Source: a virus
Length of the DNA: 58,669 nt
Reading direction: 5' to 3' (one strand)
IMG/VR virus record: IMGVR_UViG_3300017917_003009
Coordinates: 1 to 58,669 of that record
In this document: piece after piece, positions 5,920 to 41,687 of the stretch
How positions within the stretch are numbered: the first letter of the stretch is position 1
How the letters are laid out: the number at the start of each line of letters is the position of its first letter
Made by a program: the position numbers and the translations under genes
Notes under the pieces: model-generated
Seen by the model: only the letters and a program-made list of their open reading frames with translations
What the model was told of the DNA's origin: nothing
Database searches by the model: none

Positions 5920-8900
5920 ATGGCAGTAAACATTAAATTAAAACGCAGTGCCGTTCCCGGCCAAGTCCCTACCACCTCTCAATTAGAGTTAGGTGAATTA
6001 GCTCTTAACACCCGTGATGGTAAAGCTTTCTTTAAACGAGATGATGGAACAACACAATCTATTATAGAACTAGCTTCCACTAGTGGATCATCAGTTGCTT
6101 CAGCATCTTATGCTTTATATGCCGCTAATGCGGGTTCTGCTTCTAATGCTGCAAATGCCATATCTGCTTCATATGCTTTAACAGCATCCTATGCTTTTAA
6201 TTCTACAAGTGCTTCATATTCTCTTATAGCTACAAGCGCCTCAAATGCTGCAACAGCATCATCAGCTGATAATTTTTTAGTAAGAGGTACGTTAACAGCA
6301 CAAACTATTGTTGCTCAATATATTACCTCTTCAACGAGTTTCATTACTGGTTCTACTAAGTTTGGAACCTTATCTTCAAACACCCATCAATTTACTGGTA
6401 GTGTTAGTGTTAGTGGCTCATTAGAAGTAAATAATTCTAATGTAATATTAGAAAACCAAACATCATCAATGTATGTTGGTACAGCATCTCTAGCTATCCA
6501 AGCTATTCAATCAAACTTAGCTAATACGGCATCACATGCTATATTTGCTGAATCTGCATCTCAAGCATTAACAGCATCATATGCTGGTAATTATACATTA
6601 TTATCTACCTTCAACAGCTTTTCCCAATCATACAATACAGGATCTTTTACAGGTTCATTTACAGGTTCATTATTTGGAACTGCTTCACACACTTTATTTG
6701 CTGAATTTACTCCATATGCATTAACAGCATCATATGCTTCAACGGCTAGTTATGTAAAAAATGCTCAAAGTGCTTCTCATGCTGGTGATTATACATTAAC
6801 TAGTTCATTTCAAAGCTTTACACAATCTTATTATGCTGACAGTGCTTCTGTTAGTACAAGAGTATCAAGTTTAGAAGCATTTAGCTCTAGTTTAGATGCA
6901 ACTTTTGCAACAGATGCTCAACTAAATTTTTCATCCTCTGTATTAAGCGGATCAATAGCAGCATTAAGCTCTAGTTACTTAGCTGATAGTGCTTCATTCA
7001 ATACTCGTATTAATAATAATAGTTCAAGTATTGTTTTATTAAGTGGTAGTTATTTAGCTTCCTCTGCATCTTTTGATACAAGAATACTTAACAATAATAG
7101 TTCTATTACTTTATTATCAAGTAGTTTCTTAAACACTAGTTCTTCATTAAATACAAGAGTTAGTAATTTAGAAACATTTAGTTCTAGTTTAGATGCAACG
7201 TTTGCTACTGACGCTCAATTAAACTTCTCTTCTTCTGTACTGAGTGGTTCAATAGCATCATTAAGTGCTAGTTTCTTAAGTGTTAGTGCTTCAAACTCAA
7301 CAAGAATATCCAACCTAGAAACATTTAGCTCTAGCTTAGATACAATATTTGCTACTGATGCTGATTTAAATGCTTTAAGTGCTAGCTTTAAAAGTTATAC
7401 TAGTTCAATAAACAGTTGGACTGGTTCATCAACATCACAATTTGGAGGTACAGCATCATATGCTATTAATGCTACAAGTGCTTCATATGCTGCAACAGCA
7501 TCATCAGCTGATGATTTCTTAGTAAGAGGAACATTAACTGCACAAACAATTATTGCCCAAACTATTACTTCATCCGTTAGTTTCATAACAGGATCAACTA
7601 AATTTGGTACATTACTCGCAAATATCCACCAGTTTACTGGTTCAGTAAATGTAACAGGATCCTTATCTGTAAATGGTGTTGATTATATAAACTTATCCTC
7701 TTCATTTGATACAAGAATATTAAATAATAGTAGTTCTATTGCTTTACTAAGCGGAAGCTACTTGGATTCTTCTTCATCATTCGATACTCGTATACTTAAT
7801 AATAGTAGCAGTATTGGTCTTTTAAGTAGTAGTTATTTAGCCTCTTCTGCATCGTTTGACACTCGTATTTTAAACAATAGTTCAAGTATTGCTTTACTAA
7901 GTGGAAGCTACTTAGCTTCTTCAGCTTCATTTGATACTCGCATTTTAGCTAACAGTTCAAGCATTGCTTCATTAAGCAGTAGTTATTTAGCTTCAAGTGC
8001 ATCATTTGATACTAGAATATCAAACAATAACTCTAATATTATTTTACTATCAGGTAGCTTTTTAAGTGTTAGTGCTTCTAATTCAACAAGAATATCTAAT
8101 CTAGAATCATTTAGTTCTAGCTTAGATGCAACATACGCAACAGATGCTCAATTAAATGCAGCTACAGCTTCATTAAGTGGCTCAATATCTGCTTTATCAT
8201 CTTCATTCTTATCATTTAGCAGTTCATTCTCTACAGGCTCCTTTACAGGTTCGTTTAATGGTACCTTTAGTGGTTCATTAAATAATTTACAAGGTACAGC
8301 TAGACACATTCCGTTCTTTAGTTCATCTCAAGTATTGGATGATAGTTCAATATATCAAGTTGGTACTGAAAGCGTTGCTATTAACCAAAATGCTGTTACA
8401 ACAGCTGCTCCTGAAGCACTATATGTTTGGCAACCAAGTACATCTTCATTTAATGTAATTAGTGGTAAAGGTAATTTAGATAACTACTTACAATTAAATA
8501 TTCAGAATACCAACCAAGGACCTACAGCATCTTCTGACATCGTAGCTACAGCAAATAATGGTAATGAAACTACCAACTATATTGATATGGGTATCAACAG
8601 TGAAAACTTTAGTGGTTTTCTTGGTGGACCTAATGATGCTTACATTTATTCTACAGGTAACGAATTTCATATTGGTAATGCTACTGCAGGTAAACACTTA
8701 GGTTTCTTTGTTGGTGGTGGTAATGTAGATACTGATAATAAATTTGCTTTATATCCTACTAACCAACACCAGATGACTGGTTCGTTGGATGTAAGCGGTA
8801 GTGTTAAAGCATTTAATTTTACAGGAAGTTTATTAGGTAATGTTACTGGTTCTTTATTTGGAACTGCTAGCTGGGCTTTAAATTCAATAACAGCATCTTA

Positions 8901-29817: not shown

Positions 29818-30642
29818 ATGAACCAATTACCCCAATTTCCTTGGTATTTTAATAAAAAAGAATTTTTTAAAATAACCACATCTACTAAAAAAGAAATGGA
29901 TTTCTACCCAGCTGACCATGAAAATACCTTTAACCAAAATCTTTTAACTCAACCTGAAGACTGGCACTATAGAACTAAAAAAATTACATATAAACTTAAT
30001 TCACATGGGTATAGAGCCCCAGAATTTAATACTATTGATTGGAGTGAATCTGTAGTGTTGTTTGGTTGTTCTTGTACATTTGGAATTGGAGTAGATGAAG
30101 ATGAAACTATATCTTATTACTTAAGTGAAAAACTAAATAGACCTGTTATAAACATGGGGTGGCCTGGTGGTTCTAACATGAATATGCTAATGAATTCTTT
30201 AGTATTGTCTCAATCAAAACAAATCCCTTATACTATGGTGTTTTTATGGAGTACAACAGATAGATTTCCATTATTCACTGATAGACAAGTTTATAATATT
30301 GGACCTTGGGATTCTAATGAAAACCAAAAACATGTAGAATATAGAGATTCATATAATGATGTTTATAGTGCTTTGTTTGAAAATTATAACTTTTTTATTC
30401 AAAATGAAACTATGAATAGCTATTTTATATCTCAATTTGCTAAAGAAATATGGGAAGAAAAAACAAAATACATAACAGGTACTTTTTTTGGAAACACTGC
30501 ATTGTGTATGGATGTAAAAAATGTATTTAAAATAGATAATAAAGCTAGAGACTTAATCCATCCTGGAGTAGGATCTAATAAAACAACAGCTAATGAATTA
30601 GCTTACTTAATAAAAAATTATGGAGTCAAAAATTTATTGTAG
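29818..30642 (+). CDS. SGNH-hydrolase-like protein 2
   Basis: 274 aa. A NSHGYRAPEF lead-in is followed by VVLFGCSCTFGIGVDEDET (Ser85 as nucleophile), NMGWPGGSNMNM as the Gly/Asn block, and DLIHPG near residue 250 as the terminal Asp-His. The N.(L/H)G(Y/F)R lead-in and GCS.T.G core are shared with the SGNH gene at 40388. It overlaps the next gene by 23 bases. Likely role: acyl group handling on a glycan. Confidence 0.72.
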   Translation: MNQLPQFPWYFNKKEFFKITTSTKKEMDFYPADHENTFNQNLLTQPEDWHYRTKKITYKLNSHGYRAPEFNTIDWSESVVLFGCSCTFGIGVDEDETISYYLSEKLNRPVINMGWPGGSNMNMLMNSLVLSQSKQIPYTMVFLWSTTDRFPLFTDRQVYNIGPWDSNENQKHVEYRDSYNDVYSALFENYNFFIQNETMNSYFISQFAKEIWEEKTKYITGTFFGNTALCMDVKNVFKIDNKARDLIHPGVGSNKTTANELAYLIKNYGVKNLL

Positions 30643-32704: not shown

Positions 32705-33877
32705 ATGAAAGTAGGTTTTATTGGCGTCGGTAAATTAGGCAAAGACGCTGCTGAAGTAATGCAAGAAGCTGGTCATGATGTTTTAGGATATGACGTAAAA
32801 ACAGTACATGATACAGAAATTAGAATGGTAGCATCATTAAAAGATGTTTGCAAACACGGTGAAATTATTTTCATTGCTGTACCAACCCCTCACCACCCAG
32901 ACTATGATGGTAGCCAACCAACATCACATTTAGAACCAAAAGACTTTAACTATAATATTGTTAAAAGCATACTAGAAGAAGTCAATCAATATACAACTAA
33001 AGAACAATTAGTAGTATTAATATCAACAGTATTACCAGGCACTATAAGAAGAGAATTTATTCCGTTAGTAAAGAATTATAGGTTTATTTATAATCCTTAT
33101 TTAATTGCTATGGGCACGGTAAAGGAAGATATGGTAAATCCTGAAATGGTAATTATTGGAACTGAAGATGGACAGGTAACAGGTGACGCAAATATATTGA
33201 TTGATTTTTATAATACATTTGTTAAACCTAATACTAGATATGAAATTGGTACTTGGGATGATGCTGAAGCAATTAAAATATTTTATAACACATTTATCTC
33301 AGCTAAATTATCATTAGTTAATATGATAATGGATGTAGCTGAAAAAAATGGTAATATGAATACTGATATTGTAACAGGAGCATTAGAAAGAAGTACAACA
33401 AGAATTATGGGTCCTTCTTATATGAAAGCAGGTATGGGAGATGGAGGTGCTTGCCATCCGAGAGATAATATTGCTTTAAGATATATATCTGAAAAATATG
33501 AATTAGGATATGATTTATTTGAACCTATTATGACTGCTAGAGAAGAACAAGCTCGTAATATAGCTAAACGATTAATGGAGTTACATGATGTATATGAATT
33601 ACCAATTATTATTTTAGGTGAAAGCTACAAACCAGGAGTTCCATATACTGATGGTTCTTATACTAAATTAATTGGTTATTATTTAGAAAATAAATTAGAA
33701 TATAAAGGATTACAATATGATAAAACTGATAGTCCTGCTGTGTATTTGTTAGGACATAGGGGTGTACATAACACTACCAATTTCCCTAAGGGTAGTATTG
33801 TTTTAGATCCTTGGAGAGAAAGACTTAAAAAGGATACAATTTATTATGGAAATAAAGTAACAAAATGGATATATTAG
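32705..33877 (+). CDS. UDP-glucose/GDP-mannose dehydrogenase family protein
   Basis: 390 aa. The Rossmann start MKVGFIGVGKLGKDAAEVM binds NAD. IFIAVPTPHHPD, VLISTVLPGT and NPYLIAMGTVKEDM match the nucleotide-sugar dehydrogenase family. The catalytic Cys is residue 250, in GDGGACHPRDN; most members have GGSCFPKD, so Ser and Phe are replaced but the Cys and the downstream charged residues stay. Residues 300-390 form the C-terminal NAD/UDP domain (GESYKPGVPYTDGS). The enzyme oxidises a nucleotide sugar twice to a uronate, giving a donor for the transferases of this island. Confidence 0.88.
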   Translation: MKVGFIGVGKLGKDAAEVMQEAGHDVLGYDVKTVHDTEIRMVASLKDVCKHGEIIFIAVPTPHHPDYDGSQPTSHLEPKDFNYNIVKSILEEVNQYTTKEQLVVLISTVLPGTIRREFIPLVKNYRFIYNPYLIAMGTVKEDMVNPEMVIIGTEDGQVTGDANILIDFYNTFVKPNTRYEIGTWDDAEAIKIFYNTFISAKLSLVNMIMDVAEKNGNMNTDIVTGALERSTTRIMGPSYMKAGMGDGGACHPRDNIALRYISEKYELGYDLFEPIMTAREEQARNIAKRLMELHDVYELPIIILGESYKPGVPYTDGSYTKLIGYYLENKLEYKGLQYDKTDSPAVYLLGHRGVHNTTNFPKGSIVLDPWRERLKKDTIYYGNKVTKWIY

Positions 33878-35436
33878 GAATATCAGCACACTACCACGAT
33901 TCAGCAGCTTGCTTATTTAGAGATGGCAAATTGATATATGCTTGTGAAGAAGAAAAATTTACAGGTATTAAACATGATTCTTCATTTCCTGTTAATTCAA
34001 TAAAATATATTTTTGACCACTTTACTGATAAAGTAGATCTTGTATGTTATTATGAAAAGCCTTCTTTAAAATTAAAAAGAGCATTTAAACATAATATTAA
34101 ATCAGTTCCTCGTATATTATGGACTAATATTAAGCTATGGTTTCAACTAAAGCAATTTAAAGCTCCTATACATTTTTCTACACACCATAATTCTCATTTA
34201 GCATATTCCTATTTTACATCTCCTTTTAATGAGGCAACTGTTATTAGTATAGATGGAGTTGGCGAGGAAGATACAATTTGTGTTGCTAATGCTGAATATG
34301 GTAGGATAAATAAATTAAAAACAACAAAATATCCTCACTCACTAGGACTATTCTATTCAGCTATAACAGCATTTTTAGGATTTAAACCAAATGAAGGTGA
34401 ATATAAAGTAATGGGATTAGCATCATATGGTGATCCTTCAGTGTATTCTGATGCTTTTAATAAATTAATTTCTCATAGAGATGGTATTAAAACAAACATG
34501 AAGTACTTTACTTGGAATAAAAGTAATGATACTATGTTTAATCATCACTTGATAGAATTACTAGGTGATAATAGATTACCTGATGAACCTATAACACAAC
34601 GCCACAAAGATATTGCTGCTGCTCTGCAACAACAATACGAAAATATGTTCCTTTATTTACTACAACAACACCCAGGGGAAAACTTATGTTTAGGAGGTGG
34701 TTGTGCTTATAACGGAACAGCAAATGGTAAAATTAAAATTAAAACCAACTACAAAAATGTTTACATCCCACCTGCTCCATCAGATGCTGGATCATGTATA
34801 GGTGCATGTTTAGATTATTTAAGATACCATCGTAGAATAGACACATACTTAGGTCCTCAATTTGACTCTAAAGTAGATAAAGCACAATCCCTAGATTTAT
34901 GGTTACTTGCTGAGGAATTAAATAAGGGTAAGGTAATTGGATGGTATGAAGGTAAAATTGAATTTGGGGCTCGCGCATTAGGTCATCGCAGCATATTAGC
35001 AAGTCCCCTATATCCGGGTATGCAAGACCGTATAAATAAGCTCATTAAAAAACGAGAAATGTTCAGACCATTTGCTCCAATGGTAATTTATAGTGAGCAA
35101 AATAAGTACTTTTATTCCGATGATTATGTGCCTTATATGAACCAAGTAGTTAAGGTTAGAGAAAAATACAGAGATATACTAACAGCAATTACACATGTTG
35201 ATGGAACCGCTCGTATACAATCTGTAAAATTAGAAGATAACGAAATGATGTATAGACTATTAAGTCTTTTTGGTGGGCATAGTGGATTTCCTATATTGCT
35301 AAATACATCATTTAATGTAAAAGATAAAACAATGGTGTTGTATCCTGAAGATGCTTTACAAACATTTTGGGATACCGATATAGACATATTAGTTATTAAT
35401 AACCAAATGATATTTAAAAATGATAAAATTAATTAA
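33865..35436 (+). CDS. O-carbamoyltransferase (NodU/CmcH/TobZ family)
   Basis: 523 aa. N-terminal Kae1-like half: ILGISAHYHDSAACL, CEEEKFTGIKHD, HHNSHLAYSY, VISIDGVGE, and NLCLGGGCAYNGTANGKI. C-terminal YrdC-like half: GKVIGWYEGKIEFGARALG with HRSIL, REMFRPFAPMV, DGTARIQSV and FPILLNTSFNVKD. All family blocks are present and length is close to normal, so it should be active. It transfers a carbamoyl group from carbamoyl phosphate to a hydroxyl, usually on a sugar. It overlaps the dehydrogenase by 13 bases, so the two are probably translated together. Confidence 0.93.
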   Translation: MDILGISAHYHDSAACLFRDGKLIYACEEEKFTGIKHDSSFPVNSIKYIFDHFTDKVDLVCYYEKPSLKLKRAFKHNIKSVPRILWTNIKLWFQLKQFKAPIHFSTHHNSHLAYSYFTSPFNEATVISIDGVGEEDTICVANAEYGRINKLKTTKYPHSLGLFYSAITAFLGFKPNEGEYKVMGLASYGDPSVYSDAFNKLISHRDGIKTNMKYFTWNKSNDTMFNHHLIELLGDNRLPDEPITQRHKDIAAALQQQYENMFLYLLQQHPGENLCLGGGCAYNGTANGKIKIKTNYKNVYIPPAPSDAGSCIGACLDYLRYHRRIDTYLGPQFDSKVDKAQSLDLWLLAEELNKGKVIGWYEGKIEFGARALGHRSILASPLYPGMQDRINKLIKKREMFRPFAPMVIYSEQNKYFYSDDYVPYMNQVVKVREKYRDILTAITHVDGTARIQSVKLEDNEMMYRLLSLFGGHSGFPILLNTSFNVKDKTMVLYPEDALQTFWDTDIDILVINNQMIFKNDKIN

Positions 35437-35528: not shown

Positions 35529-35948
35529 ATGATAACAGTATTATTTGGACAACCACATTCAGGTAAAACAACATTAGCTAGTAAACTAGAAGCAGATTAC
35601 TATATAGATGGAGACCATCTAAGAACTATGTTTCAAAACAAAGATTACAGCAGGCAAGGTAGAATTAATAACTTAAATAGAGCTAGCGATATTGCTACTT
35701 ACCTACATTACAATGGCAATGATGTAGTTTTGTCTCTTGTCTACCCATACCAAGAAACAAGAAACTACTTAAATAATTTAGTACCTGGAGTTAAATGGAT
35801 TTATTTAACCTATGAAATAGATAGAGGCAGAGAACAATTTCACGTAGCTGATTTTGAATATCCAGCTGATGATGAAGCTCTATACCTAAACACAGAATGG
35901 ATGGAAGAAGAAGATTGTATAAAACAAATTAAGGAATATGTGGGATAA
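35529..35948 (+). CDS. Adenylylsulfate (APS) kinase-like protein
   Basis: 139 aa, shorter than bacterial CysC (about 200). P-loop GQPHSGKTT (7-15), IDGDHLR (26-32; the DGD.(V/L)R block of CysC), RINNLNRASDIATYLH (the ..EN.RR...A block) and VLSLVYPYQETR (the ..S.(I/Y)P....R strand) follow APS kinase order. The enzyme family makes PAPS, the sulfate donor. Two sulfotransferase-like genes follow at 38588 and 39831. The missing C-terminal part could alter specificity, so another small-molecule kinase is possible. Confidence 0.7.
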   Translation: MITVLFGQPHSGKTTLASKLEADYYIDGDHLRTMFQNKDYSRQGRINNLNRASDIATYLHYNGNDVVLSLVYPYQETRNYLNNLVPGVKWIYLTYEIDRGREQFHVADFEYPADDEALYLNTEWMEEEDCIKQIKEYVG

Positions 35949-36336
35949 AAAAGTACACGTTAAAAGCTCAATGGAGCGTAAAGATAGTCAATGGTCATTG
36001 TTTATCGGCCGTTGGCAACCACTACACGAAGGACACCAGCAGTTATTTAGACAAGTAATTAATGAAGGTGGTAAAGTATGTGTTGCTATTAGAGATGGAG
36101 AAGTTAATGAAAAGAACCCATTTAGCTCACGTCACGTAATGAGTAACATCTTCGATAAAATGCAAGACGAAATCGAAGAAGGTAAACTAAAAATAATTAT
36201 CATACCAGACATATGCAGCGTTGAATTTGGACGCGGTGTTGGATACGATATTATTGAGCATATACCACCAACTGAAGTAGCCGAAATATCAGCGACTAAA
36301 ATACGTGAACAAATGAAGGTTGAGGGTAAATTATGA
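35938..36336 (+). CDS. HxGH nucleotidyltransferase
   Basis: 132 aa. SLFIGRWQPLHEGHQQLF carries the HEGH site (30-33); the EISATKIREQM end carries the ISxTxxR motif. This is the cytidylyltransferase/ATP-sulfurylase-like alpha-beta fold. It overlaps the APS-kinase-like gene by 11 bases. An ATP sulfurylase role would complete a PAPS pathway, but the protein is far smaller than known sulfurylases, and glycerol-phosphate, pantetheine or sugar-phosphate substrates are as likely. An alternative start at residue 12 (35971) exists. Confidence 0.75.
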   Translation: MWDKKVHVKSSMERKDSQWSLFIGRWQPLHEGHQQLFRQVINEGGKVCVAIRDGEVNEKNPFSSRHVMSNIFDKMQDEIEEGKLKIIIIPDICSVEFGRGVGYDIIEHIPPTEVAEISATKIREQMKVEGKL

Positions 36337-36542
36337 TAGTACAACGAAAAAGACATATAGCAAAAACCATTAGTTATCGCGTTGTTAGTACGCTGATTGG
36401 GTTTGGTATTATGTGGGCCGTTACGGGTAGTATTAAAATTGGTGCTGCTTTCGGTGTTGCTGAACTAATATATAAACCAATCCAATATTATCTTCATGAA
36501 AGGATATGGTATAAATGGATTAAATATGGCTTAAAAAATTAA
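36333..36542 (+). CDS. DUF2061-like membrane protein
   Basis: 69 aa. KRHIAKTISYRVVSTLIGFG, then WAVTGSIKIGAAFGVAEL and a YYLHERIWYKW end follow the DUF2061 pattern exactly, with two predicted membrane helices (about 17-33 and 38-55). I recall DUF2061 proteins encoded beside sulfate-activation genes in bacteria and in aquatic phages. Four-base overlap with the nucleotidyltransferase. A role in transport or membrane anchoring of the sulfation set is inference. Confidence 0.8.
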   Translation: MIVQRKRHIAKTISYRVVSTLIGFGIMWAVTGSIKIGAAFGVAELIYKPIQYYLHERIWYKWIKYGLKN

Positions 36543-36554
36543 TATTTATAAATA
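36543..36554 (+). promoter_or_regulatory. Palindromic TATTTATAAATA element
   Basis: The 12-base palindrome holds TATTTATA (36543-36550) and the canonical T4 late motif TATAAATA (36547-36554) on the same strand. The next ATG is at 36557, leaving almost no leader, so if it is a promoter it more likely serves a later gene or the leader is minimal. Confidence 0.35.
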
Positions 36555-36556
36555 TT

Positions 36557-36844
36557 ATGGATAAAATAAGTGAAATAATAAATGCATGGGCAGTATCATT
36601 TAATCCAACACCTGAACAAAAAAAATTAGCAGAAAAACGATATGAGATATGTTTAGGTTGCGAGAATTATGGTAAAAGTAGACCTGTACTTGGAGATGAA
36701 TATTGTAAAAAATGTTTATGTCCTATACAAAAAAAAGTATATACTCAAAAATTAAACGATACATGTCCTATGGGAAAGTGGAAAGAAATTGAAAAAGAAT
36801 TTAGGAATGAAAAAGCTAAAAAAGATAAATATAAATTAATATAA
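36557..36844 (+). CDS. Small Cys-rich zinc-ribbon-like protein A
   Basis: 95 aa. Helix IINAWAVSFNPTPEQKKLAE, then Cys pairs CLGC, CKKCLC and a final CPMGKW. The spacing fits a zinc-binding treble-clef or ribbon. A paralogue is at 41454; both share AW...NPTPEQK..AE.R...C, (Y)C..C.CP..KK and CP..KW. Such proteins accompany accessory genes in T4-like phages; function unknown. Confidence 0.7.
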   Translation: MDKISEIINAWAVSFNPTPEQKKLAEKRYEICLGCENYGKSRPVLGDEYCKKCLCPIQKKVYTQKLNDTCPMGKWKEIEKEFRNEKAKKDKYKLI

Positions 36845-36853
36845 TAAAATATT

Positions 36854-38419
36854 ATGAGAAGTGTATTAATATCAACAGATTTGATAATGAAGCAAGATGG
36901 AACATGGACTCCAACTGAAATAAATACAAATACGAGCCATGAAATGTCTTTTAAAAATAAAGATAGTGGTTCTGCAACACAATTTATTGATAATTTTGGT
37001 GATTATGTAAATCATGTTGAATTTAATGAATTTCTACAAACAAATAATATAACAACAATAAAAACAATTGATGTTAGAGCAGGATTTCATAGAGTTATTG
37101 AATCTTTTTGTAAACACTATCCAGGATACACATATGAATTACATGAAGTTAGTCAAGATAGTGTGGTTGTTCCTGAAGTTGAGGATGGTAACAATATATT
37201 AATTATTAGAATAGCATATGATTCATATGCACTTATTGATGATTTATATGCTAGAGATAATTATGAATTTCATAATTTGATTAAAAACGAAACTTTTGCC
37301 TCTCCTGTTACCTTTAATACAGGTAATGAAACTAACATAGATACAATTACAGTTTTTGAACCATCAATAGATGGTATTGTGCCAAATTATGTTGTTAAAA
37401 GAAGAACACCTGGAGGTGCAAAAGGCCAATACCCCGTATTATATAGATTAAATTCTCAAGAACAACTTGATAGCCTAAAATCATCTATCACATCAGATGA
37501 ATTTATTCAAAAATATGAATTTAATCAATCATCATTAATTAATAATAGGACTAACTTTATAAGAAGTATAGATTTATTATATGGTCCTACTTTAGAAGTT
37601 TTTAATTTATTAACTTATAAATCACTAAACACAGTATCAACTCAAAATAATGTATTAGTATACGATAATGAAGTAGATGAAAATGGAAGATTAAACGGCT
37701 TATTTGCAAGCAAATACTATCCAAAAATTATACCAAATTACTCTTTAAGTTATCACTTTGACGAAAATGATTTAATTCTAATGCCAGATGGAACTGACTT
37801 AATTGCATCTAGTTTAGTCTTAACTCAAGAAGTTAAAACTATATATTTTAATGAGCAAATTATAGCATTCGAACCATCTAATATTTCAAATTTAGAAACC
37901 TTTAACATAGATTCTCAATCTATTGTATCAATAGACGATACAAAAGCGGGTGGTGGTGTTTTTATTAATATAACTGGAGTTAATGAATCTGGAGTAGAAT
38001 ATAGTTGGTATGATGGTTTGCATAACTTTTATTTACTACAAAAAGCAAATGATACTACAGCACAATATACTAATTCATTAGCAGGAAATATTGAAATTGG
38101 AGATACAATATTTACATATAATAAAACTACAAATAGTATAGATACTCTTACAATACAATCTATAACATTTGATATTAAAAATATAACAACATATAAAATG
38201 TCTCTTGGTGGGTCAGAGGAAAGAGAATTCTTTATTAAATTGTCAGAAGAAGAAGATTCAAACGAAATATATTTAATTCAACACAATGCTGATCCTTGTT
38301 CTCCTTACTGTAGTTACTATTATACTTGTGGGTTTGGTGGTTGCTCTGGTTGTTACAAAACAAACCCTTCATGCCCAGCATGTTCACCTTTTTTCCAATC
38401 TAGTTATGCTTGTTTCTAG
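36854..38419 (+). CDS. Multidomain protein: possible ATP-grasp-like part, Hint-like module and Cys-rich tail
   Basis: 521 aa, not a recognised family. The start VLISTDLIMKQDG..WTPTEINTNT resembles the metal-binding E.N segment of ATP-grasp enzymes; NYVVKRRTPGGAKG and EFIQKYEFNQSS could be the ATP-contact Lys and Q/E strands. Residues about 370-480 (NIEIGDTIFTYNKTTNSID, TTYKMSLGG, and IYLIQHNAD) resemble a Hint (Hedgehog/intein) fold, whose end block is typically a hydrophobic run plus HN. No starting Cys is evident, so splicing activity is doubtful. The last 40 residues hold nine or so Cys, including CGFGGCSGC. All three assignments are weak inferences. Confidence 0.4.
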   Translation: MRSVLISTDLIMKQDGTWTPTEINTNTSHEMSFKNKDSGSATQFIDNFGDYVNHVEFNEFLQTNNITTIKTIDVRAGFHRVIESFCKHYPGYTYELHEVSQDSVVVPEVEDGNNILIIRIAYDSYALIDDLYARDNYEFHNLIKNETFASPVTFNTGNETNIDTITVFEPSIDGIVPNYVVKRRTPGGAKGQYPVLYRLNSQEQLDSLKSSITSDEFIQKYEFNQSSLINNRTNFIRSIDLLYGPTLEVFNLLTYKSLNTVSTQNNVLVYDNEVDENGRLNGLFASKYYPKIIPNYSLSYHFDENDLILMPDGTDLIASSLVLTQEVKTIYFNEQIIAFEPSNISNLETFNIDSQSIVSIDDTKAGGGVFINITGVNESGVEYSWYDGLHNFYLLQKANDTTAQYTNSLAGNIEIGDTIFTYNKTTNSIDTLTIQSITFDIKNITTYKMSLGGSEEREFFIKLSEEEDSNEIYLIQHNADPCSPYCSYYYTCGFGGCSGCYKTNPSCPACSPFFQSSYACF

Positions 38420-38450
38420 AATATTAAATTTAAAAAACTAAATTAATTTT

Positions 38451-38567
38451 ATGAATGATAATCAAATAACAGGAACTACCCCATCAGTTTTAACTGAATC
38501 TGAAAAAATACAGGTTAGTTCAATAGTTGCTACTATAGTAGAGTTAATTAAAGAAAAACATCTTTAA
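38451..38567 (+). CDS. Small acidic/helical protein (38 aa)
   Basis: ATG at 38451 to TAA at 38565-38567. The product has a Thr-rich start (MNDNQITGTTPSVLTESEKI) and a helix VSSIVATIVELIKEKHL. It is preceded by an A/T-rich leader and fills the gap between two larger genes. No family; kept because the frame is well placed and non-repetitive. Confidence 0.4.
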   Translation: MNDNQITGTTPSVLTESEKIQVSSIVATIVELIKEKHL

Positions 38568-38587
38568 TTTTATTAAATAAATAAGTT

Positions 38588-39295
38588 ATGCTAGTAGATG
38601 ATAAATTTATCATTATTTTAATTCCAAGATGTGCTACTACTTCTTTTGTCGCCAGTTGTCAAAAATACAATATCCCAACAAAAAGTGGTAGAAGTAATAT
38701 TGGGGGGTATGATAAACTTGTAAGTTTTATAACAAAAAGATTTACACATTTCCATGATGATATATCATTTTTAACCTCAAAATTTGGAAACGACTACCCA
38801 ATAATTGCAGTAAGAAGAAATAAATATGATTCTTTTATTTCATTTTGGAAAATGATTTTAACTATTTTAGATAAATATTATGGTGAAGTTGAATTAGTTG
38901 AAACATTATCAAAATTAAAAACTGATGATATTTTATTTTTTGGTAAAAATGATTACAATTTAAAAAATTATCCAAATGGTGAATTGTATGAAGCTTTTTT
39001 TATAAAAAATAATATAAAATATAATAAAGTTTTATTTGATTATATACAACTTCTTTATCTGCCGCAATCATATTGGCATAAATTTGATAAGAGAGTAATT
39101 TGGTTTGATTTTGATAAATTAAACGAATTAGAAAGTTGGGTTTCAGATAAACTAAACATGGATTTTAAATTAGAAAATATAAATTCTACAAAAGAAGTAA
39201 TTAGTGAATTAAAAAATGACGAATATTTTAAAGAAAAATTTGATTATATATATTCTAAATATGAAATCATTAAAGAAAATAAAACAATGATATGA
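38588..39295 (+). CDS. Sulfotransferase-like protein 1
   Basis: 235 aa. FIIILIPRCATTSFVAS (8-24) is the 5'-phosphosulfate loop (consensus PRSGTTS), with Cys-Ala in place of Ser-Gly. PIIAVRRNKYDSFISFWKM (about 75-93) is the 3'-phosphate block (R.....S..W). These define PAPS-dependent sulfotransferases. The rest is A/T-rich and diverged. With the APS-kinase-like gene 2.6 kb upstream it suggests sulfation of a glycan or protein. Leader AAATAAGTTATG; ATGA overlap with the next gene. Confidence 0.68.
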   Translation: MLVDDKFIIILIPRCATTSFVASCQKYNIPTKSGRSNIGGYDKLVSFITKRFTHFHDDISFLTSKFGNDYPIIAVRRNKYDSFISFWKMILTILDKYYGEVELVETLSKLKTDDILFFGKNDYNLKNYPNGELYEAFFIKNNIKYNKVLFDYIQLLYLPQSYWHKFDKRVIWFDFDKLNELESWVSDKLNMDFKLENINSTKEVISELKNDEYFKEKFDYIYSKYEIIKENKTMI

Positions 39296-39831
39296 TAAAC
39301 ATTTATTCAAATTTCCTAAGTGAAGAATGTGTAAAATCATTGGATAATAAAATTGAAGAAATCTTATATAAGTCTGACTCAAATGTACCAAATTTTACAA
39401 CAAGTTTAACTAGTTGGGCTAAAAATGTACAAAATAGTAGTACACCTATTATACGATATGTTTTAAATAAAAATGATGATACTATATTTCAACTACTAAA
39501 AAAAGAAATAGAAAGTAAAATTCCATATTATGTTGACAATATGGTTATTCATTTAGCACCAAAATTAAGTTATATACCTTGGCATAATGATAGCCATGTA
39601 TCAGCTGCCTTAACTATATATCTTAATAAAAAGTGGGATATAAACTGGGGAGGTTATTTTTTATATAAATTGAATAGTGAAATAAAAGCAATTAAACCTG
39701 AATTTAATTTAGGTATTTTACAAGAAGGTGGTGAAAAAGGATTACCTCACTGTGTTACTACAACTAATATTGATGCTGATTTAAGAATATCCTTACAATT
39801 ATTTTTAACTAATAAAAAGAAATTAGTTTAA
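39292..39831 (+). CDS. 2OG-Fe(II) oxygenase
   Basis: 179 aa. The iron site is His98 and Asp100 in IPWHNDSH and His153 in KGLPHCVTT; Arg165 in DADLRISLQLF would bind 2-oxoglutarate. GGYFLYKL between them is typical of prolyl-4-hydroxylase-like phage oxygenases. It lies between the two sulfotransferase-like genes, joined by ATGA and TAATG overlaps. The substrate could be a sugar, a collagen-like fibre proline/lysine, or a sulfated product; nothing in the sequence decides. Confidence 0.75.
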   Translation: MINIYSNFLSEECVKSLDNKIEEILYKSDSNVPNFTTSLTSWAKNVQNSSTPIIRYVLNKNDDTIFQLLKKEIESKIPYYVDNMVIHLAPKLSYIPWHNDSHVSAALTIYLNKKWDINWGGYFLYKLNSEIKAIKPEFNLGILQEGGEKGLPHCVTTTNIDADLRISLQLFLTNKKKLV

Positions 39832-40391
39832 TGGTTATTACAATAATTGCAGAACCAAGAAGTGGCGGAACTAATTTGGCAAATTGGTTTATAGATAAAA
39901 AAGATTTTACAACACTATACGAACCAATTACAAGTCCTGATAAAATTTGGTATAAGCATGGAGTGTCTCCTAAATTATGGACTTATAAAACACCTCACAT
40001 TTTAATTAAAGAAACATACAACATTAAAACAAACTTTTTTGAATTAATAGAAATATCGGATAAAGTAATTATTTTACATAGAGAAAATATAGCTGAACAA
40101 ACGGAATCTTGGTTAAATGCTACTAAAACAAATAATTGGGATAAAGTGTGGGTATTTAAAGAAAATTTAATAGCAGATCACGACGCATCCTATTTTTATC
40201 AAATTAAAAACGGAATAAAAGAAAATTATTTAAATAAAAATTATTTTAATATATCATATGAGGAATTATATTATAATAGTGGTTTTCAAAAAGTATTAGA
40301 TTATTTAAATATAGATGGATTAGAAAATAAAAACTTTCCATATGGAAGTAAGTATAGAATAAACCTTAATAAACCAAAAAGTTTAATATGA
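39831..40391 (+). CDS. Sulfotransferase-like protein 2
   Basis: 186 aa. TIIAEPRSGGTNLANWF (4-20) is a 5'-phosphosulfate loop with the full PRSGGT motif. VIILHRENIAEQTESWLNA (about 79-97) is the 3'-phosphate block with Arg, Glu-Asn and Ser-Trp. The protein is shorter than bacterial sulfotransferases, but both PAPS-binding blocks are intact. It is the better of the two sulfotransferase calls. ATGA overlap with the SGNH gene downstream. Confidence 0.72.
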   Translation: MVITIIAEPRSGGTNLANWFIDKKDFTTLYEPITSPDKIWYKHGVSPKLWTYKTPHILIKETYNIKTNFFELIEISDKVIILHRENIAEQTESWLNATKTNNWDKVWVFKENLIADHDASYFYQIKNGIKENYLNKNYFNISYEELYYNSGFQKVLDYLNIDGLENKNFPYGSKYRINLNKPKSLI

Positions 40392-41143
40392 TCTCCCTAA
40401 AACATTGGACCCCGGAAACATTTGAGGTATCAACATATAAATGGAGTATTAACGAACGCAAAAACAAATCACATACTACTTCAGGATCTGATAACTCAGG
40501 CAAATGTACTTACACATATAATTCATTAGGATTTAGAGGTGATGAACCTACTAAACCAGGATTTAAAGTAATGTCTGTAGGTTGCTCCCACACTGAAGGG
40601 GTTGGATTAAATGACGATGAAACCTGGTCTCATCAGTTATGTAAGTTAATTAATGGAGTAGATTTAAATTTTGGGTATGGTGGAAGAAGTAATGATTATG
40701 TTGTTAGGTGTTTATTAACATATTTTGATGTAATAAATCCGGATTTAGTATTAATTATGTATCCAAATCAAGATAGAAGAGAATACTATACTGATAAAGG
40801 AAATATAGAACCTTTTGCTTACAACCCTTGGGGACATTTAGTAGAAACAGAAGAGGGTAAAGAAATTTATAATGGCTTAATGGCAGGAGCTAATAATGAA
40901 TCTAATTTTATTAACTGGTATAAAAACCACTTGCTAATAAAATATTATTTAGAAAATAAACAATGTCCCTGGGTGTGGAATGGAGTACATTTGTTCGCCG
41001 GAATTGATGAACCTAATAGATTTGATGGTGACTATAGAAATTTTATAGACTATGGATCCGATGGAGCTCATTCCGGACCTCAACATAATAAACAATACGC
41101 AATGAATTTACATCAATTTTTAACCAATAATGATATTATTTAA
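40388..41143 (+). CDS. SGNH-hydrolase-like protein 4
   Basis: 251 aa. YNSLGFRGDEPT lead-in, then VMSVGCSHTEGVGLNDDETW (Ser67 nucleophile), NFGYGGRSNDYVVR as the Gly/Asn block, and a SDGAHSGPQHN segment near residue 230 as possible terminal Asp-His. It shares its lead-in and core with the SGNH gene at 29818, so the two are paralogues placed at separate points of the island. Last gene of the island. Confidence 0.7.
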   Translation: MISLKHWTPETFEVSTYKWSINERKNKSHTTSGSDNSGKCTYTYNSLGFRGDEPTKPGFKVMSVGCSHTEGVGLNDDETWSHQLCKLINGVDLNFGYGGRSNDYVVRCLLTYFDVINPDLVLIMYPNQDRREYYTDKGNIEPFAYNPWGHLVETEEGKEIYNGLMAGANNESNFINWYKNHLLIKYYLENKQCPWVWNGVHLFAGIDEPNRFDGDYRNFIDYGSDGAHSGPQHNKQYAMNLHQFLTNNDII

Positions 41144-41208: not shown

Positions 41209-41454
41209 ATGACATTATTAGTAATCCTAATCATCGTTGCAGTAGCAGTATTCGTTGCTGTAAAAACCGGTAAGGTAAAAGATGAAAACAACAACAACAT
41301 TCCTGACGCTATTGAAAAGCCAATCGAAGCTGTTAAGGAAGTAGTTAAAGAAAAAATTGCAAAAGCAAAGGCACCAAAAGCTCCAAAGGCACCAGTTGCT
41401 AAACCAGCAGCAAAAAAACCTGTAGCAAAAACGAGTGCTAAGAAAGTAAAATAA
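41209..41454 (+). CDS. Single-span membrane protein with histone H1-like basic tail
   Basis: 81 aa. Residues 2-18 (LLVILIIVAVAVFVAV) form one membrane helix; residues about 20-35 are a short linker (DENNNNIPDAIEK, a Ca-binding-like acidic stretch); residues 40-81 are Lys/Ala/Pro repeats (KAPKAPKAPVAKPAAKKPVAK). The tail could bind nucleic acid, lipid or polyanionic glycan at the inner membrane. No family assigned; TAATG overlap with the next gene. Confidence 0.65.
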   Translation: MTLLVILIIVAVAVFVAVKTGKVKDENNNNIPDAIEKPIEAVKEVVKEKIAKAKAPKAPKAPVAKPAAKKPVAKTSAKKVK

Positions 41455-41687
41455 TGCTTAAACTAGCAGAAATAGCAAAGGCATGGATAGCAGCAGCTAA
41501 TCCAACACCAGAGCAAAAAATTATAGCTGAGTATAGGGCGAGTGTTTGTGACACTTGCCCAAGCAAAGCTCACCAGGCTATAATGGATTTATATTACTGC
41601 AGTGAATGTGGATGTCCACTATCTAAAAAAATTTTCAGTCCTGTTGAAGGACCTAAAGCTTGCCCATTAGCTAAATGGGAACAATAA
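41454..41687 (+). CDS. Small Cys-rich zinc-ribbon-like protein B
   Basis: 77 aa, paralogue of the protein at 36557: AKAWIAAANPTPEQKIIAE, CDTC, YYCSECGCPLSKK and CPLAKW. Cys spacing fits one or two zinc sites. The two copies bracket 36.8-41.2 kb, which holds the sulfotransferase and oxygenase genes. Function unknown. Confidence 0.7.
   Translation: MLKLAEIAKAWIAAANPTPEQKIIAEYRASVCDTCPSKAHQAIMDLYYCSECGCPLSKKIFSPVEGPKACPLAKWEQ

Follow-up and report, generated by a model that had tools for sequence, protein, structure and literature searches.

A phage gene cassette predicted to make PAPS and transfer sulfate, with a small nucleotidyltransferase as its probable ATP sulfurylase

INTRODUCTION

Can a phage bring its own pathway for activating sulfate, or must its host supply the first step? 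The question is raised by a locus in IMG/VR virus record IMGVR_UViG_3300017917_003009, analyzed here over its whole length of 58,669 bases (the window). An earlier note had pointed to five genes there, an adenosine 5'-phosphosulfate (APS) kinase-like gene (kin), an HxGH/ISxT nucleotidyltransferase gene (nt), a gene for a small DUF2061 membrane protein and two sulfotransferase-like genes (st1 and st2), and had suggested that they could jointly make 3'-phosphoadenosine 5'-phosphosulfate (PAPS) and transfer sulfate. All five genes lie on the plus strand where that note had placed them: kin at 35529..35948 (139 aa), nt at 35938..36336 (132 aa), the DUF2061 gene (Pfam DUF2061, 1.4e-17) at 36333..36542, st1 at 38588..39295 (235 aa) and st2 at 39831..40391 (186 aa). 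The reading frames of the first three overlap by 4 to 11 bases, an operon-like arrangement.

We propose, with a probability of roughly 0.8, that this cassette provides phage-borne PAPS synthesis and sulfation and that its first enzyme, nt, belongs to a hitherto unrecognized, small type of ATP sulfurylase. The family and predicted fold of kin, the sulfotransferase motifs of st1 and st2 and the genome context of nt all support the suggestion that the five genes could act together, the activities themselves being predicted. The observation that a 132-aa protein is unlike a standard ATP sulfurylase also stands, as nt has no homology to Sat or CysD; however, the conclusion drawn from it earlier, that the host may supply the first step or that the enzyme has another substrate, is not the one we reach. 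In a Flavobacteriales family, nt stands in for CysD-CysN beside CysC, and in SAR11, it co-occurs with APS reductase; therefore, the cassette itself probably encodes the first step.

RESULTS AND DISCUSSION

nt takes the place of CysD-CysN in Flavobacteriales

In 30 genomes of a Flavobacteriales family, all 27 that have an APS kinase carry either CysD (20 genomes, three partial matches included) or nt (7 genomes), never both, and the three that lack an APS kinase have neither. We read 15 of the loci (L210-L224): CysD-CysN takes the position directly after CysC in eight of them, and nt takes it in seven. Five of the CysD-type loci and all seven nt-type loci share their flanks, namely DeoC and CysQ, plus a flippase and sulfotransferases where the contig reaches that far. 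Of 29 nt-bearing genomes, 21 gave no match to Sat or to CysD. Many genomes in this and the other counts are incomplete. In these sulfate activation operons, nt fills the place of ATP sulfurylase in genomes that have no known enzyme of that kind.

The arrangement resembles PAPS synthetase (PAPSS) and the bacterial CysC-CysD-CysN system in the two-step activation of sulfate, in the kinase-nucleotidyltransferase order, with the two adjacent or fused, and in the link to sulfotransferases and, in bacteria, to CysQ. Unlike those systems, nt has 132 aa rather than the approximately 390 aa of Sat or the 301 plus 422 aa of CysD and CysN, goes unrecognized by the models for Sat and CysD and has a GRGxGY block of its own, while kin, with 139 aa, lacks the usual lid.

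nt accompanies APS reductase in SAR11

Homologues of nt often lie directly upstream of aprM-aprB-aprA in SAR11 (genes identified from their sequences, AprA by its NCBIfam model). Among 98 SAR11-family genomes, nt was present in 49 of the 52 with AprA and in 12 of the 46 without it (Fisher test, 1e-12, a value that is uncorrected for shared ancestry and overstates independence). No nt-aprA pair within 10 kb was found in 26 of the 49 genomes that have both; therefore, the co-occurrence of the two genes does not merely reflect one conserved operon. No genome of the 98 had a Sat match over the cut-off, and CysD was found in six (one partial), none of which carries nt. Five genomes (G031, G038, G078, G023, and G091) have Sat-like genes below the cut-off, and four of these also have nt. 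ATP sulfurylase was described as missing from most SAR11 in a 2023 paper (PMC10356861). In sulfite oxidation, nt would run backwards (APS + PPi -> ATP + sulfate, where PPi is pyrophosphate). The AprBA pathway and the cassette thus have APS as their common metabolite but would use nt in reverse directions.

Because the flow in SAR11 should go from sulfite to sulfate, a phosphate-dependent enzyme would serve there too, and some viruses have nt with no kin nearby. It can be envisioned, therefore, that the cassette is sulfate related but that nt uses phosphate (APS + Pi -> ADP + sulfate) or is accessory, in which case the phage host would supply APS and just kin and the sulfotransferases would matter. 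We regard this as very unlikely. In Flavobacteriales, an operon for PAPS synthesis can have nt instead of CysD-CysN, no other ATP sulfurylase was found in the genomes tested, and HxGH/ISxT enzymes release PPi from nucleoside triphosphates.

APS links the cellular settings of nt

Many marine bacteria and archaea carry nt homologues (467 confirmed matches). In Nitrospiraceae, nt comes after a sulfite reductase-like gene and CysH, and in Marinimicrobia and marine group III archaea, it is preceded by an APS kinase homologue. Kinase-nt fusions occur in SAR11, Bacteroidetes, a Nomurabacteria genome and phages; human PAPS synthetase has the same kinase-nucleotidyltransferase order. APS is the sole metabolite that all the cellular settings of nt share. 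Sequences from viruses and from cells intermix in the tree of nt, with at least two virus groups, and the deep order is unresolved. It is quite probable, in our judgment, that nt represents a third ATP sulfurylase class, one of about 110 to 160 aa that is related to nicotinamide mononucleotide (NMN) adenylyltransferases. Such a class would span phages, SAR11, Flavobacteriales, Marinimicrobia, marine group III archaea and Nitrospiraceae; it would supply the step missing from sulfite oxidation in SAR11 and would give phages a complete PAPS pathway in less than 1 kb.

By eye, the kinase-nt pair also stands beside S-adenosylmethionine synthetase and adenosylhomocysteinase genes in three loci from marine group III archaea and a Bacteroidetes genome (L141, L144, and L159).

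kin belongs to the APS kinase family

By sequence and by predicted fold, the best matches of kin are in the APS kinase family. Its Pfam APS_kinase match (E value, 3.5e-9) scores 37.3 bits against a cut-off of 21.1, and when a profile of 49 virus homologues was compared with the PDB, APS kinases and PAPS synthetases ranked first, down to 7e-18. The AlphaFold2 model of kin has a predicted local distance difference test score (pLDDT) of 95, and its best Foldseek match is 7yq1, the Archaeoglobus fulgidus APS kinase with APS (4e-9; TMq, 0.85). Both comparisons favor APS kinase over non-APS kinases, as the earlier note had supposed. The residues that are invariant in the 49 homologues (G7-K13, D27, G28, D29, R32, G44, R45, N48, P73, and R78) form the motifs G..GK (the P-loop), DGDxxR, GRxxN and PxxxxR, which align with the corresponding APS kinase columns. 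The NCBIfam apsK equivalog cut-off was missed (33 of 138.7 bits). From these matches, kin is predicted to phosphorylate APS at the 3' position, giving PAPS.

st1 and st2 resemble sulfotransferases

The protein encoded by st1 has a PRCATTS 5'-phosphosulfate loop and an RRNxxxxFISFW block, and that encoded by st2 has an EPRSGGTN loop and an RxxxxxQxxSW block. The alignments of both families keep the 5'-phosphosulfate loop and the 3'-phosphate R...S block; in the st2 family, which is found at 17 virus loci, R10, S11, G12, R84, Q90, and S93 are invariant. An st1 relative (L111_3) exceeds the Sulfotransfer_2 cut-off (1.1e-5), and 7 of 15 st2 family members match Sulfotransfer_3 weakly (best, 0.0019). 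A pattern search of the viral contigs for st1 gave no matches; members of the st1 family were then found by clustering. The resemblance to sulfotransferases noted earlier is thus borne out by the conserved loops and blocks and by the relatives' Pfam matches, modestly so for st2, and it is from these motifs and relatives that a sulfotransferase role is inferred for both.

Neither st1 nor st2 has a Pfam match of its own, their profiles gave no significant match to a solved structure in the PDB (for st1, the weak match was to heparan sulfate 2-O-sulfotransferase, with an E value of 0.14), and st2 has just 186 aa. These results would also fit the view that the two proteins are not sulfotransferases and that their link to kin-nt in the window is due to chance within a modular glycan island. 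We consider that improbable, since both families retain the phosphosulfate loop and the R...S block, their relatives match Sulfotransfer_2 and Sulfotransfer_3, and an unambiguous Sulfotransfer_3 gene (1.5e-17) adjoins the same kin-nt pair in other viruses.

The cassette recurs across viruses

That Sulfotransfer_3 protein is the commonest companion of nt in viruses (59 genes on 58 contigs). Among 85 distinct virus contigs with nt, kin lies within 1.5 kb of it in 74 and DUF2061 in 81, and a sulfotransferase family gene is present in the locus of about 12 kb in 69; many of the exceptions sit at contig ends. The grouping of kin, nt, DUF2061 and sulfotransferase genes in viruses exceeds chance. When only contigs of at least 30 kb were considered, 33 of 38 had a Pfam Sulfotransfer_3 match, and in all 28 contigs that were measured, which reach 373 kb, the Sulfotransfer_3 gene was 0.5 to 3.8 kb from nt. 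The five contigs without such a match include three (L033, L037, and L038) that carry the st1 family and one (L103) with a gene that has a PKTGGSS loop and was assigned by eye as Sulfotransfer_2-like. The structural modules beside the cassette differ between viruses; therefore, it apparently moves as a unit.

In a Flavobacteriales genome (L218), a tandem DUF2061 gene (8310-8711) immediately precedes CysC-CysD-CysN, and DUF2061 is also near these genes in another. Because of these two cases, DUF2061 is possibly, if weakly, tied to sulfate activation or supply. In some virus loci, such as L005, L034, and L040, a gene for a 115-aa HAD phosphatase-like protein (HAD_PNKP, 1e-3) often stands between nt and DUF2061.

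At the limits used, relatives of kin, st1 and st2 were absent from the annotated phage collection, and nt had distant ones only. These belong to PHROG 10255, annotated as "kinase" (Stenotrophomonas and Xanthomonas phages), which is like the cassette in having a kinase and an nt domain, here fused, with GRDVGY and ISATxIR kept. In contrast to the cassette, its identity over nt is about 34%, its specific function is unannotated, and neither of the two records that were read has a sulfotransferase annotated within 6 kb of it. The fused proteins of Stenotrophomonas phages DLP_6 and Bhz60 (L123 and L124) are of this kind; in Bhz60, the gene adjoins an NADAR-domain gene and is a few kilobases from an annotated cysteine dioxygenase gene. 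No account of phage-encoded PAPS synthesis or of a new type of ATP sulfurylase was found in the open-access literature; subscription papers and preprints were outside the search.

Sequence and fold of nt, and the weight of the evidence

The HxGH and ISxTxxR motifs of nt, together with its predicted alpha/beta fold, place it in the HxGH nucleotidyltransferase superfamily, and its Pfam CTP_transf_like match (1.2e-6) is over the cut-off. An alignment of 40 virus homologues has 22 invariant residues, including GRWQ..H..H, R52, N60-P61, GRG.GY and S.T..R, and the signature of the family, invariant or nearly so, is GRWQxxHxGH, R52, N60-P61, PD, GRGxGY and S(A/G)TxxR. The best matches of nt in both sequence and fold are to the archaeal-type NMN adenylyltransferase NadM, with which it shares the superfamily and the GRxQPxHxGH, NP and ISxTxxR motifs. 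However, the match covers the N-terminal half only, nt has no counterpart of the middle region, and the scores are far below the family cut-offs (33.6 bits against 127 for the NMN adenylyltransferase model, with no full-length match). The genomic settings also differ: nt lies among genes of sulfur metabolism, and there is a separate NadD. NadD was over its cut-off in 27 of the 31 nt genomes tested, including all seven from Flavobacteriales; therefore, nt is not needed for synthesis of nicotinamide adenine dinucleotide (NAD).

Three other identities were considered and ruled out: a truncated Sat, by profile comparison; a decayed gene, by its strong conservation in a set of 60 diverse sequences from viruses and cells; and an NAD synthesis enzyme, by the separate NadD of most nt genomes and by the genomic context.

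Several observations weigh against an ATP sulfurylase role for nt and against the pathway as a whole. The nearest relatives are NMN adenylyltransferases, and searches of nt against NCBIfam, Pfam and PDB profiles gave no match to Sat (TIGR00339) or CysD (TIGR02039); when the nt profile was aligned with Sat by hhalign, the alignment was confined to the ISxTxxR motif. The AlphaFold2 model is moderate overall (pLDDT, 82.6) and weak at the family-specific residues (51 to 71 around residues 91 to 120, the GRGxGY region), and the Foldseek matches are weak, with NadM best at 4.5e-3, Sat (1v47) at 4.3e-2 and PPAT also among the first. Because the model is poor around GRGxGY and these matches are weak, structure alone leaves the substrate of nt undecided. 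Three SAR11 genomes carry AprA without nt, some nt genomes, in Nitrospiraceae, also carry Sat, and the virus contigs in which nt has no kin nearby count here as well. The genome counts are phylogenetically nonindependent, and the exchange of CysD for nt may represent one or two events. Finally, kin is without the long APS kinase lid (KGxYxKAR), the region being shortened to RGRExFHVxDFExP; therefore, its substrate range is not proven.

An alternative is that nt activates another substrate, such as NMN or a phospho-sugar, and that kin phosphorylates an alcohol other than APS, so that the product of the pair is an activated metabolite unrelated to sulfate. Small HxGH enzymes often act on phospho-alcohols, nt is closest in sequence to NMN adenylyltransferases, and the distant fused protein of Stenotrophomonas phages is encoded next to a NADAR-domain gene. 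We nevertheless consider this explanation unlikely, given that kin is specifically APS kinase-like, that most nt genomes have a separate NadD, and that nt is found with APS-handling enzymes in four cellular settings: with CysC, where it replaces CysD, with AprBA, with CysH and in kinase-nt fusions.

Proposed pathway and its significance

If nt is an ATP sulfurylase, it would convert ATP and sulfate to APS and PPi, and its invariant arginines and GRGxGY block would be candidate sulfate-binding elements. kin would then convert APS and ATP to PAPS, pulling the unfavorable nt step forward as happens in other systems, and st1 and st2, or the Sulfotransfer_3 protein in most relatives, would pass sulfate from PAPS to an acceptor. 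The acceptor would most likely be a glycan made by the neighboring glycosyltransferases and carbamoyltransferase, carried on the virion fibers or on the host surface.

Such an assignment would mean that a small form of a central sulfur cycle enzyme has been missed by the annotation models used, which give NMN adenylyltransferase as the best match. For SAR11, which according to the literature has APS reductase but mostly no ATP sulfurylase, it would answer how sulfite oxidation is completed and whether ATP is gained in the process. Many aquatic phages, moreover, would come equipped with a complete pathway to PAPS for the sulfation of a glycan, a modification that may serve host recognition or a change of the host surface.

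Neighborhood of the cassette

The window encodes a contractile tail sheath, collagen-like tail fibers and a single-strand DNA-binding protein, and the tail sheath gene sits a few kilobases downstream of the cassette. The kin-nt cassette is contained in a glycan modification island at approximately 20.7 to 41 kb. Between 20684 and 35436, this island encodes two Glyco_transf_7 proteins (one with a LamG domain), a methyltransferase, a UDP-glucose/GDP-mannose-type dehydrogenase and a NodU/Nol-like carbamoyltransferase. The gene for the last of these (33865..35436, plus strand) is just upstream of kin and matches Carbam_trans_C (7e-62), Carbam_trans_N (5e-57) and phrog_1601 (7e-114). The presence of carbamoylation and sulfation genes in one island is reminiscent of Nod factor decoration.

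Three genes within the interval of the cassette were absent from the earlier note. One, between st1 and st2 (39292..39831, plus strand), encodes a 2-oxoglutarate (2OG)-Fe(II) oxygenase-like protein whose 2OG-FeII_Oxy_3 match (7e-4) is below the cut-off. Another (36854-38419) encodes a 521-aa protein without a family match, in which an EINTNT stretch in the N-terminal part looks ATP-grasp-like by eye and the C terminus is rich in Cys; its family is present near the cassette in 13 contigs. Related hydrolase-like proteins of one cluster, without a Pfam match, are encoded on either side of the cassette (29818-30642 and 40388-41143). The third gene (36557-36844) encodes a 95-aa Cys-rich protein that has a paralogue encoded at 41454-41687, so that small, zinc ribbon-like proteins stand on either side of the sulfotransferase genes.

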